50,605 nucleotides of DNA, taken from positions 1-50,605 of the forward strand of contig NZ_AOMD01000013.1 in the NCBI RefSeq assembly GCF_000336915.1, written 5' to 3'. This DNA is from Halococcus saccharolyticus DSM 5350 (GTDB lineage Archaea; Halobacteriota; Halobacteria; Halobacteriales; Halococcaceae). Under the pieces are notes generated by a model. That model searched no databases and was not told the DNA's origin. It saw nothing but the letters and a program-made list of their open reading frames with translations. The translations under genes and the position numbers were made by a program. Of the stretch, positions 6,314 through 11,514 are shown in pieces; positions within the stretch are counted from its first letter, which is position 1, and each line of letters opens with the position of its first letter.

Positions 6314-7978
6314 TCAGTCGAACCGGGTGTTCGGTCGCTCGAACCCACGAGCGAACGTCTCTTCGTCGATCGTCAGCACCGTGGGTCGGCCGTGAGGACA
6401 CGCAAAGGGCTGTTCACATGTCCCGAGACGTTCGACGAGTCGAGTGGCGTCCTCGCTCGAAAGAGACTCGCCGGCTTTGAGCGAGGGATGACACGCGACA
6501 TCCTTCAAGAGCTCCTCGCGTGGATTCTCCGGCTCGTCGCCGGCGAGGAACCCATCGAGCACGTCGTGAACGGCCGACGGCTCCGCGACGCGACCGAGCG
6601 GCGCGGGCAGGCCTGTCGCTCGATACGCACCCCCGTCGGTTTCGATCCGGAACCCGAGCGCGTCGAGTGCGTCAGCGTTGGCCTCCACGAGCGCCGCCTC
6701 GGCGGCCGTCAACGAGAGCGGCGTCGGCTCGATTCCGACCGAGCTGATCCCGTCGTCGAGCGCCTCTCGCAACCGTTCGAAGTTGATCCGTTCGTGGGCG
6801 GCGTGCTGATCGACGACGAGGAGGTCGTCGTCGGCCTCGCACAACAGGTAGAGTCCGCGGAACTGACCGATGACCGAGATCGTGTCGAACGCCGACTCGC
6901 CCGCGGGTTCGCCGAGTGACGAGTCGAGATCGAGCGCGACCTCCCCTGTCCGCGCGAGGTCCTGGGTCGCGAGCGCGTCGGCGATCGCCTGTTCGACCGC
7001 TTCGGCGACTTCATCCGGATCGGCGAACGCGACTTCGTCCTTCGAGGGGTGGACGTTGACGTCGACCCGCTCGGGTGGGAGGGAGACATCGACCACGGCG
7101 ATGGGGTACCGGTCGTCGGGCAGCAGGGTCCCGTAGCCGTTCGTCACCGCCTTTCTGACGGTCGGATCGTCGAGCGCGCGGCCGTTGATCGCGGTGGTGA
7201 CGTGTGCCGGCGTCGATCGGGTGATAGAGGGATAAACGACGAGCCCGCTCACGCTGACCCCGTTGGACGGTTGATCGTCGCCGCTCTCCTTCTCGTCTTC
7301 CTGGCCGAACTCGGTGCTCTGGCCCGCCACCTCGCGATTGTACACCCCGAGGATCGCGTCGGTGTAGCTCCCCGAGCCTGGCGTCGAGAGCACGGTCCGG
7401 CCGTCGTGCGTGAGAGAGAACCGCACGTCTGGATGGGTCAGTGCGTAGTCCGAAACCGTCTCGCTGACCCGGGCGAACTCGCGTTTCGGCGTGGCGAGGG
7501 ACTTCCGACGCACTGGCGTGTTGGCGAAGAGGTCGGTAACCGAGATTGTGGTGCCGACCGCCCGCCCTGCCGGCCCCGTCGTTTTCTCTCCGCCGTCGAC
7601 GACGACGCGCGTGCCGGCGGCCCCGCTCTCTGCCGCCTTCGTGGTGAGTTCGAGGCGCGCGACCTGCGCGATGCTCGGCAGCGCCTCGCCACGGAATCCG
7701 AGCGTCGCGACGCGTTCGACGTCCTCGACGCCACCGATCTTGCTCGTGGCGTGACGCTCGACGGCGAGGCGAGCGTCGGTTTCGGTCATCCCGTGACCGT
7801 CGTCGGCGACCCGGATCAGGTCGAGACCCGCGTTCTCGACGACGACCTCGACACTCGACGTACCGGCGTCGAGGCTGTTCTCGACGAGTTCGGTGACGAC
7901 GCTCGCGGGGCGCGTGACGACCTCGCCGGCCGCAATGCGTTCGACGGTTTCGGGATCGAGTTCAGTGATTCTCGTCAT
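6314..7978 (-). CDS. mutL: DNA mismatch repair protein MutL
   Basis: A 554-aa GHKL ATPase with a C-terminal nuclease domain. N-terminal motifs are [18 protein letters not shown] and [13 protein letters not shown]. The C-terminal half has the endonuclease signature [12 protein letters not shown], matching DQHA(x)2E(x)4E, plus ACHPSLKAG and CPHGRPT metal-site motifs, so it should nick DNA as MutL does in organisms without MutH. A low-complexity insert (SGDDQPSNG) lies between the ATPase and transducer portions. Its start overlaps the mutS stop by 17 nt, so the two are probably co-translated. Confidence 0.96.
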
Positions 7979-10730
7979 CGAGTCGGCGTTTGAGCCCGTC
8001 GAGCCGGACGAGCGCCTCCACGGGCGTCGTCTCGGCGATCCGCAGGCTCCGTAGTTCGGTTACGATCTCGGCGCGGATAGCGGCTTCGTCCGGGTCGGTC
8101 TCGGCTGTCGGATCGATATCGCGGCGATCGTTGCGGTCGGCCGCTTCACCGCTGTGGTCGCCATCATCGTGTCCGCCTTTCCCGTCGTCCTCGCTCAGTG
8201 GGTCCTGATCGACGGTCCCCGACACGAGTTCGCGCGAGCGCTCGACGACCGGTTCGGGAACGCCGGCCATCCGTGCGACGTCGACGCCGTAGGAGGCCGA
8301 GGCGGCTCCCTCGGCCACCGTGTGGAGGAAAGTCACTTCCCCGTCGGTTCGATCGGCGGCGAACTGTAGGGTCTGGACGCCGTCGCGTTCTTCGGCGAGT
8401 TCCGTAAGGTCGTGGTAGTGGGTCGCAAACAGCGTGGTCGCACCGATCTCGTCGTGGATGAACTCCGTCACCGCCCTGGCGATCGCCTCGCCGTCGGTCG
8501 TGCTGGTCCCCCGACCTACCTCGTCGAGGAGGACGAGCGATTCGGCGGTCGCGCCGTGGAGAACGTCGGTGACCTCGGCCATCTCGCGCATGAACGTCGA
8601 TTGGCCGCCCGCGATGTCGTCGCTCGCGCCGACCCGTGTGAACACTCGGTCGACGACCGGGAGGTGTGCCTCTTGGGCCGGCACGAAACTTCCCATCTGG
8701 GCGAGGATCGCGATCAACGCGATCTGGCGCATGTACGTCGATTTCCCCGCCATGTTTGGCCCCGTAACGATGGCGAACGGTTCCTCGCACAGATCGGCGT
8801 CGTTCGGCACGAACTCGGCGTGGCGTTCGACCACGGGATGACGACCGTCGCGGATCGCGATACCGTCGTTGCCGAATTCGGGCCGGGCGTAGTCGTTCTC
8901 GACGGCGACGTGCGCGAGCGTACAGAGCACGTCGAGGCTCGCGAGGTGGTCGGCGAGGCGCTGAACGCGGTCGGTTTCGGCGGCGATCTCGCTTCGGATA
9001 TCGGTAAAGAGCTGGTGTTCGCGCGAATCGGCGCGTTCGGCCGCGCCGAGGATCTCGTCCTCGTGACGTTCGAGTTCGGGGGTGTAGAACCGCTCGGAGT
9101 TTTTGAGTGTTTGCCGACGGGTGTATTCGTCAGGCACCGCATCGAGGTTCGCGTTCGTGACCTCGATGTAGTAGCCGTGGACCTCGGTGTGACCTACCGA
9201 GAGTGAGTCGATTCCGGTCCGTTCGCGCTCGCGTTCTTCGAGATTTGCCACCCACTCCCGTCCTTCGCGCGCGGTTGCCCGGAGGTCGTCGAGGTCGTCG
9301 TCGAACCCCTGCACGATGACGCCGCCCTCGGTGATCTCGGCGGGAGGTTCGGCCTGAATCGCCCGCCCGATCAGCCCCCGGACATCGTCGAGTCCGTCGA
9401 GTCCGTCGCGACACTCCGCGAGCAGATCGGATTCGGCGTCCGATAGCTCCTCTCGAAGCCGGGGAACGACGTCGAGCGTCGTCTTCAGCGCACGGAGGTC
9501 GCGGGCGTTCGCCCGATTGCGCGAGACGCGCGCCACGAGCCGCTCGATGTCGTAGACCCCCCGCAGGAGTTCGCGGACCTCCTCGCGGACGAGCGATTCG
9601 CGCGTCAACTCCTCGACGGCGTCGAGGCGTGCCTCGATCGTCGCCTGATCGAGCAGCGGACGACGGAGCCACCGGTCGAGTTCCCGCCGCCCGAGTGCAC
9701 ACGCAGTCTCGTCGAGCACCGCCACGAGCGTGTGGTCGTCGTCGCCCGCTCGATTCTCGAAAACGTCGAGGCTCCGGAGCGCGGTCGCGTCGAGACCCAT
9801 TCGTTCGCGGGGGTCGTATCGGGTGAGTCTGGTGACGTGACCGAGTTCACCGTTGGCGGCCTGGGTGTGCTCCGCGTAGGCGAGCAGCGCGCCTGCGGCC
9901 CTGATCTCGCTCTCACACTCGAACACCGCTTCCGGCTGCGGTGCGTACGACGCGACGCGCTCGCGAGCGGTCTCAGTATCGAACGCCGTCTCGTCGTACG
10001 GCGTCACCATGCAATCGATATCGAAGTCTCCGCACGAAACCTCCGGCGCAAGTACGACCTCCGCTGGACCGAGCCTGTCGAGTTCGTCCCGAATCGTCCC
10101 CCGAGAATCGTCGCTCGTGGCGCGGAACTCACCGGTCGAGACGTCGACGAACGCGACGGCGTAGGTCGTTCCCGACGGTTCCACACCCCCACTCCCGCCC
10201 GCTTTCGCGCTGATCCCGCCGTCCGTCTCAGTGGTGGCCGCTTCATCCGTAGTTGCTCCCGGACCAGTGCCGTGTTCCTCACTCGTCTCGATCATCTCCC
10301 CTGCGAGACAGGCGACGTAGTTGTTGCCGGGCGCGAGCAGTTCGTCCTCGACGACCGTGCCGGGAGTGACGACCCGAGTGACCGCCCGATCGACGACACC
10401 GGTAGCCTCGTCGGCATCCTCGACCTGCTCGGCGATCGCGATCCGGTAGTCCGCATCGAGGAGCGTTTCGACGTACGTCACTGCGTTGTCGATCGGGATT
10501 CCCGCCATCGGGTAGGTTCCCGTGCTGTCCTCGCGCTGGGTGAGGGTGATCTCGAGTTCGCGCGCGATCGTCTCCGCCGCCCCGCAGAACGCTTCGTAGA
10601 AATCCCCCATCTGAAAGAGGAGCAGTGCGTCGTCGTACGCTTCGCACAGCTCGACGTACTGCGTCATCATCGGCGTGAGGTCCTCGCGACTCGCCGTCAT
10701 CCCCTCCGGCGGTCCGAGCGCGGCGTCCAT
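7962..10730 (-). CDS. mutS: DNA mismatch repair protein MutS (MutS1 type)
   Basis: A 922-aa MutS. The mismatch-recognition motif FYE is at residues 44-46 (QMGDFYEAF). The ATPase domain has Walker [10 protein letters not shown], the [10 protein letters not shown] segment, and Walker [14 protein letters not shown] Thr/Gly/Glu-rich linker of about 45 residues (near 145-190) sits between domain I and the connector; it is longer than in bacterial MutS. The C-terminus has an Asp/His/Glu-rich insert before the final helix. ATG 10730 is preferred over a longer in-frame start because a TATA-like TTTGTAC lies ~27 nt before it. It is the first gene of mutS-mutL-rfcL. Confidence 0.96.
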
Positions 10731-10750
10731 ACCCGCCCGCGGAACGCCAT

Positions 10751-10790
10751 TGTACAAAGACTTGCGGGTGACCTCGGTGAACGCTTTTGT
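10751..10790. promoter_or_regulatory. Divergent promoter pair, mutS / GNAT
   Basis: The 82-nt gap between the mutS ATG (10730, minus) and the GNAT ATG (10813, plus) holds two TATA-like boxes, each ~26-27 nt from its start. TGTACAAAG (10751-10759) reads toward mutS and CTTTTGT (10784-10790) reads toward the GNAT gene. Both genes are therefore probably leaderless. Confidence 0.45.
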
Positions 10791-10812
10791 TCCGGGGTTC
10801 ACAGTTCGAACC

Positions 10813-11514
10813 ATGTTCCCCGAACGTATCGAAACTGATCGATTGATCCTCGAACGTCTCTGTCACGAGAACATCGACCTTCAGGAGTTCTATCGCGTCT
10901 GTTCGGACACCGACGGTAGCGAGGAGCGACGCTCCGCGGACCATTCGAGCGGGCAGCGAGGCGGTTCCACCGCCTCGAAGGAGACGGCGAAGCCGTCTCC
11001 CAGCCCGCGAGAAAACAGCGAAGGGATGGACGAGGTCACGCGATACATGCCGTGGGACCCCCACGCGACGATCAACGAATCGAAGGAGTTCATCGACGGG
11101 GCGGAAAAGCGGTGGAAAGAGGCCGAAGGTGCGGATTACGCCATCCGCCCCGCTGAGGACGAGGGCGGAGCGGGTGCGTTCGCCGGTGTCGGCTCACTGC
11201 ATCTCGATTGGGACCGACAAACCGGCAGTCTTGGTATGTGGCTCCGCAAGCGATTCTGGGGCCGTGGGTACTCGGGCGAGCGCGCGGCGGCGCTGATGGA
11301 GCTCGCCTTCGAGCGCCTCGATCTCGAAGTGGTCGCCGTCACCCACCACGCCGACAACGAGAAATCCAAACGGGCGATCGAGAAGTACGTCGAGGCCCAC
11401 GGCGGCCAGTGTGAGGGCTACCTCCGAAACTGGGCTCCGTACGGTGATGAGGTGGCCGACGAGTACCGATATACCGTCACGCAAGCGGAGTACCGCGACG
11501 CGACCGGGGACTGA
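10813..11514 (+). CDS. GNAT N-acetyltransferase (RimJ/RimL type) with palindromic insertion
   Basis: A 233-aa acetyltransferase of the ribosomal-protein/Nα-acetyltransferase type. It opens [16 protein letters not shown], typical of this family. The acetyl-CoA loop is visible as [13 protein letters not shown], followed by [17 protein letters not shown], the usual asparagine/serine helix. Between [13 protein letters not shown] and MDEVTRYM there is an extra stretch of ~37 hydrophilic residues (Ser/Lys/Arg/Glu-rich) encoded by DNA with nested hairpins. The reading frame is kept and the domain resumes normally, so the protein may still fold. The substrate is unknown. The longer start at 10675 is rejected because it overlaps mutS. 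Confidence 0.85.
10923..11008. repeat. Palindromic coding insertion (three hairpins)
   Basis: Inside the GNAT gene. Perfect inverted repeats are GGAGCG/CGCTCC (10923-10928 / 10930-10935), GAGGCGGT/ACCGCCTC (10958-10965 / 10969-10976) and GGAGACGGC/GCCGTCTCC (10980-10988 / 10992-11000). An outer stem GCGGGC/GCCCGC (10949-10954 / 11003-11008) encloses the last two. The block adds about 37 codons in frame to a position where the family normally has a short loop. Confidence 0.8.

Follow-up and report, generated by a model that had tools for sequence, protein, structure and literature searches.

A Frame-Keeping Palindromic Insertion in an Acetyltransferase Gene of Halococcus saccharolyticus and Its Probable Place in a Dispersed Element Family of the Halobacteriales

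The Acetyltransferase Gene and Its Insertion

The window analysed here is a stretch of 50,605 nucleotides from Halococcus saccharolyticus DSM 5350, constituting contig C13 of a 3.45-Mb genome that is 99.6% complete. Positions 10813-11514 of the forward strand encode a GNAT acetyltransferase, as judged from the open reading frame and its translation, from the Pfam match of the product to Acetyltransf_3 (PF13302, E 9.5e-21), and from orthologues in congeners that display 73-86% identity. A long ORF resembling mutS (7962-10814) is divergent from the GNAT gene, and the start codons of the two overlap.

The GNAT gene contains an inserted palindromic element at 10917-11015 on the same strand, starting with TAGCG and ending with GAGAAAA. 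According to both the ORF list and the translation, the open frame runs unbroken across it. A palindromic insertion that keeps the frame had been proposed for this gene in a preliminary description, and it is indeed found there. The proposed extent, 10919-11027 or about 37 residues, had to be revised, as the orthologue set places the boundaries at 10917 and 11015, giving 99 nt or 33 codons. The window copy is matched by the covariance model of the family (see below) at 10914-11022.

An alignment of orthologues had been suggested as a check, and all of the 27 GNAT relatives compared lack the insert. In nine congeners and in other haloarchaea the empty site reads DGSE-E-MDEV or similar, while the window protein reads DG-SEERRS.... 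At the DNA level, the 3' flank of the insert (CAGCGAAGGGATGG, 11016-11029, +) has the same length as the empty site of the orthologues (e.g., GAGCGAGGAGATGG) in an alignment of 11 orthologues, and a target duplication is thus not needed to explain the filled site. The same gene has been hit independently in one congener (G008), where a partly decayed in-frame copy is found at a different site (L080:1834-1900).

In an AlphaFold2 model of the protein the insert forms a disordered loop that separates GNAT helices 1 and 2; pLDDT is below 50 for most of residues 34-70 and above 90 in the GNAT core. This fits a tolerated linker that probably leaves the enzyme working. Going by the conservation of the frame, the insert is presumably translated and the enzyme presumably active.

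Parts and Fold of the Inserted Copy

All parts of the insert lie on the forward strand. Hairpin 1 (10920-10938) has the sequence CGAGGAGC-GAC-GCTCCGCG and was identified by folding and as helix 1 of model R1. It is followed by the linker GACCA (10939-10943), for which alignments A1-A3 give the family consensus [GT]ACC[AG]. The 5' arm of an outer stem, TTC-GA-GCGGGC (10944-10954), then pairs with the 3' arm GCCCGC-GA-GAA (11003-11013), as indicated by covariation, inverted repeats and folding. Within the loop of the outer stem are two extra hairpins, hairpin 2 (10957-10977, loop TCC, inverted repeat I2) and hairpin 3 (10980-11000, loop GAA, inverted repeat I3).

Three perfect hairpins with stems of 6, 8, and 9 bp had been described. 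Hairpins 2 and 3 are perfect, but both have 9-bp stems with 3-nt loops, and hairpin 1 is not a clean 6-bp stem: it consists either of five perfect pairs or of seven out of eight pairs with one A.G mismatch. The 6-bp stem reported to enclose two of the hairpins was correctly recognised as GCGGGC/GCCCGC; it extends past a tandem GA/GA mismatch into TTC/GAA. The hairpins added in the loop of this stem account for the window copy being 45 nt longer than the basic unit of the family, which is about 54 nt.

The fold of the insert is better than those of 200 out of 200 shuffled sequences (z -4.25 as RNA, -6.64 as DNA). One could imagine that the GNAT protein had these residues ancestrally or uses them in its function and that the palindromes are chance products of GC-rich DNA, since GC-rich codons would be expected to favour hairpins. 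This reading is refuted by the 27 relatives without the insert, by the shuffles, and by the match of the window copy (E 2.3e-10, searching the window alone) to a model built from 18 other copies, and it retains practically no probability.

A search for the series of hairpins had been suggested as a way of finding further copies. The exact hairpin sequences occur only once within the window, while copies with the same structure turned out to be frequent throughout the genome. A second recurrent hairpin unit, approximately GTTCGAAAGG-hairpin-CCTTTCGTCATGCC-GAGACGGC-hairpin, adjoins several copies (loci L009, L039, L158, L160, and others), and hairpin 3 of the window has the same GAGACGGC arms.

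Architecture and Covariation of the Family

The partial copies that a loose DNA search detected elsewhere in the genome have a common layout and differing stems. The basic unit consists of TAGCG, hairpin 1, GACC, a second hairpin containing a conserved tandem GA/GA mismatch (TTC-GA-GCGG / CCGC-GA-GAA), and GAGAAGA. What the copies share is the fold and this short core, not the hairpin sequences, which vary from copy to copy through paired substitutions. Because of these substitutions, searches with exact sequences do not find the family.

The covariance model was built from 18 copies, excluding that of the window, using a seed alignment made by MAFFT without structural information. Among 93 matches from relatives, 98.6% of the cells are paired, and 136 double-sided changes were counted compared to 31 in shuffles; the covariation score is 0.311, compared to at most 0.068 for slid versions, and these counts lean toward structure since the alignments are structure-fitted and the rows related. 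The structure-free seed alignment of the 18 copies gives a similar picture. Of 126 aligned copies, 117 have GA/GA as the internal loop and four have GC/GC, and the pairs flanking the loop covary. In the outer stem TTC/GAA covaries to TGC/GCA, and G-C to A-U.

Such strong covariation, together with an almost invariant tandem GA/GA, is also what would be expected of a functional RNA or DNA structure, taking part in mRNA processing, stability or protein binding, which has been placed and kept by selection and is not a selfish repeat. A conserved fold is also expected, though, if the step that mobilises an element reads the fold, and an Rfam search of 11 loci gave no family match above the gathering score. 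The distribution of the copies bears on the same question.

Distribution

The preliminary description had suggested that such elements might occur throughout this genome, within genes as well as between them. This proved correct, as the covariance model finds 31 copies (E <= 0.01), including that of the window, and seven of them are in frame inside genes. Hairpin-rich stretches are frequent around copies in this genome. Within the order, 78 of 99 genomes have matches, with 1 to 51 copies each. In a sample of 148 genomes covering the phylum, matches were found in members of the order only and in none of the remaining genomes. An exact pattern for the 54-nt form found 32 stretches among 84,980 genomes; all are haloarchaeal, and many genera are represented. 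Twelve plasmid records, all haloarchaeal, carry copies, while no viral contigs matched two exact patterns. Near-identical copies with unrelated flanks are found dispersed within one genome.

Among 89 intergenic sites, convergent gene pairs are the commonest class, with 31, and many intergenic copies are flanked by T-runs and A-runs, both of which would suit a functional structure kept by selection. Against such a functional structure stand the copy number, which ranges from 0 to about 50 across related genomes, the gene positions, which differ between congeners, and the host enzymes, which are unrelated. We consider it an unlikely explanation, although one that deserves to be kept in mind. It is far more probable that the copies belong to a dispersed element.

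Copies Inside Genes

The seven gene copies in this genome are all in the sense orientation and all use one common frame (...SAERSSADRSSG..PRED...) within long acidic ORFs. The host genes encode the GNAT protein, an FAD-linked oxidase, a MoaA-like protein, topoisomerase I, a cupin, a 56-kDa selenium-binding protein, and a chlorite dismutase-like protein. The 54-nt form is represented by 32 named haloarchaeal copies. Genes or ORFs contain 21 of them, and 20 of these use the same frame as the copies in this genome, the sole exception being L273. In the wider set of copies, a small number of antisense assignments made automatically were disregarded as ORFs extended too far, though not proved so case by case. 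Their hosts include GyrB, a PLP enzyme, an acyl-CoA ligase, a pyridine nucleotide-disulphide oxidoreductase, a TPP enzyme, QueC, an ArgZ-like protein, a formyl transferase, and PurL-like and GatB/E-like (including GatE-like) proteins. The hosts are thus unrelated enzymes, core-metabolism and housekeeping genes among them.

The peptide encoded by the usual frame is a hydrophilic linker of Ser, Glu, Asp, and Arg. Of the other frames, one in the sense orientation is interrupted by TAG in many copies, and the rest mostly encode basic or hydrophobic peptides. A filter for tolerated acidic linkers is therefore sufficient to explain the uniform frame, and a naive probability for such uniformity is not to be taken at face value. 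When it comes to the type of stem, TTC/GAA copies are found in genes more often (9 of 21, the window copy included) than TGC/GCA copies (2 of 86). In one set, the lengths of 19 out of 19 TTC/GAA-type gene copies are multiples of three; 17 are 54 nt long, a class that is inflated since part of the set was chosen by a pattern fixing one loop.

Insertion Sites, Ends, and Target

For six further genes of this genome, congeners have empty or simpler sites. When four insertions were compared with their empty sites, the two ends proved identical in all of them (TAGCG...GAGAARA) and the target was not duplicated. Three filled sites (loci L259, L098, and L100) are longer than an un-nested relative by 54 nt exactly, again with these ends: the chlorite dismutase gene of G004 versus this genome, the FAD oxidase gene of this genome versus G002, and the MoaA-like gene of this genome versus G007. 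In two of these three, the insertion has split another such element, directly after the GCGAR of the latter (a decayed ACGA in G002). The insertion boundaries of L104, L106, and L116 cannot be placed to the base. A MITE was considered and rejected, as the ends TAGCG and GAGAAGA are not inverted repeats and target duplications are absent in the dated insertions.

The consensus just upstream of the copies is GCGAG, and most copies follow this motif; the window copy is preceded by GACGG, not GCGAG. At the chlorite dismutase locus, G000, G004, G006, and G008 have a filled site and other congeners an empty one, a pattern that reflects either recurrent insertion or precise loss. One of the filled congeners has a nested second copy at this site (L259 versus L117, L240, L241, L245, L246, and L251-L254). 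Some of the positions that genomes have in common could result from common descent and differential loss instead of repeated insertion.

Turnover of the Hairpins

In orthologous copies the stems are nearly always identical, while the loops are often replaced en bloc. Among about 12 loop changes that leave the length unaltered, five are exact inversions (one of these trivial, affecting a single base), in a small sample where some orthologous pairs are matched on one flank only. Between the related loci L195 and L207 of G002, the loops of several successive hairpins are inverted together (TTC to GAA). The loop changes point to inversion or template switching at hairpins, processes by which palindromes could stay perfect with no need for selection on every base.

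This raises the question of whether the palindromes might have been made locally by template switching during replication, and not transferred from elsewhere. The loops that change en bloc and invert between orthologous copies would agree with this, as would the frequent hairpin-rich surroundings. A local origin, however, does not account for a non-palindromic core (GACC, tandem GA, GAGMAGA), ends, and peptide that are common to several genera, and it cannot give near-identical copies at unrelated sites of one genome. As the source of the insert, template switching is largely refuted and must be regarded as very improbable; it is probably a secondary process that reshapes the hairpins of a transferred element.

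Nature and Proposed Movement of the Element

The insert, given the two-hairpin fold with covarying stems, the dispersal, the GNAT insertion opposite empty sites, and the ends, 5' junction motif, and frame that the copies have in common, is very probably a copy of a dispersed, non-autonomous, and strand-specific palindromic element of the Halobacteriales with a basic unit of about 54 nt.

Subterminal palindromes, a fixed motif at the 5' junction, and the absence of target duplications also recall the terminal-only derivatives of IS200/IS605-type transposons, such as the PATEs of Haloquadratum; as a derivative of this kind, the element would be moved as a single strand by a Y1 transposase acting in trans. 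PATEs of 52 bp have been reported as possibly mobile (PMC3119063), and one copy of the present element overlaps the 3' end of tnpB, on the opposite strand, on a Halostagnicola larsenii plasmid (L298:2501-2561). Y1 transposase genes (PF01797) are, however, missing from this 99.6%-complete genome as well as from G003 (45 copies) and G017 (51 copies), and over the 99 genomes there is no correlation between copy number and Y1 presence (Spearman -0.06, p 0.57). The tnpB genes of this genome are far from all listed copies, and G017 has no tnpB at all. Hairpin 1 starts 3 nt from the 5' end, while the PATEs are reported to have a longer 5' spacing. An origin of this kind therefore seems improbable, without being far-fetched. 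A relationship to GTAG-type REPs with RAYT was rejected: most of the 18 seed copies have GTAG but not all do, and no PF01797 protein is encoded in this genome.

For the dispersed element itself, we tentatively propose, as a possibility still short of a likely mechanism, that it moves as a folded single strand which would be attached after a GCGAG-like target, the enzyme responsible acting in trans and being other than a resident Y1 transposase. Gene copies would persist only where the stop-free acidic frame yields a harmless disordered loop, and the palindromes may stay perfect partly through hairpin inversion or template switching. It is conceivable, if rather doubtful, that the TTC/GAA subfamily (54 nt with a stop-free acidic frame) of this order-wide mobile palindrome has itself been shaped for translation, being selected at the same time as a folded DNA strand, a GCGAG-target sequence, and a harmless acidic peptide. 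If so, a translated subfamily would be able to colonise the genes of a salt-in archaeon, including those of core metabolism and housekeeping.

The element explains odd Ser/Glu-rich insertions in haloarchaeal GyrB, PurL, QueC, and GatE-like proteins, and such insertions affect alignments, annotation, and structure prediction. Many haloarchaea can be cultured, and good genetics is available for some. A family that is present over most of the Halobacteriales, and whose empty sites, dated insertions, unvarying ends, and usual target motif are on record, makes both the movement and the use of a single frame directly testable.

Relation to Known Palindromic Elements

No description of this palindrome family was found in the literature searched, which covered few subscription papers. 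The 5S rRNA gene of this genome has an insertion of about 108 nt after GGGAAA (L296:1500-1730; G000, contig C30, near 122050), as has been described for Halococcus (PMC7812874); compared by eye, it does not resemble the palindrome and was dismissed as a relative.

Among haloarchaeal repeats, the PATEs and SMRs of Haloquadratum are the nearest (PMC3119063). Like the element described here they are mobile repeats without a transposase and without target duplication, and the PATEs have near-terminal palindromes as well. No link between the element and IS605 genes was found, though, and the PATEs are not described there as translated insertions, while the SMRs differ in having terminal inverted repeats. 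GTAG-class REPs associated with RAYT are small dispersed palindromes too, and GTAG precedes hairpin 1 in many copies of the element. In the element GTAG is inconstant and no Y1/RAYT gene is present in this genome, whereas the REPs are described as extragenic (PMC3733652).

Palindromic elements that code for protein have mainly been described in Rickettsia and Wolbachia, in addition to one archaeal report. The latter concerns palindromic repeats with coding potential in Methanocaldococcus jannaschii (Suyama 2005, as cited in PMC2229807). These are similar in being archaeal and fused in frame into protein genes, but the present element belongs to a different class of archaea.

The palindromic elements of Rickettsia (RPE-1 and others; Ogata 2000) are, according to PMC2229807 and PMC3767692, palindromic repeats found both in and between genes. 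The likeness to these that was suggested in the preliminary description is borne out in kind by the in-frame insertion, the empty sites, and the order-wide family, and descent from RPEs is not thereby claimed. As in the RPEs so described, small palindromes with a long stem-loop are found between and inside protein genes, including those of conserved enzymes, and leave the frame unbroken. The element differs from the RPEs of those accounts in its size, with a unit of 54 nt (99 nt in the window) compared to 105-146 nt, in its restriction to Halobacteria, in its two hairpins with tandem GA/GA and compensatory stem changes, and in inserting into its own kind. By analogy of features it can be called an RPE-like element of the Halobacteria.
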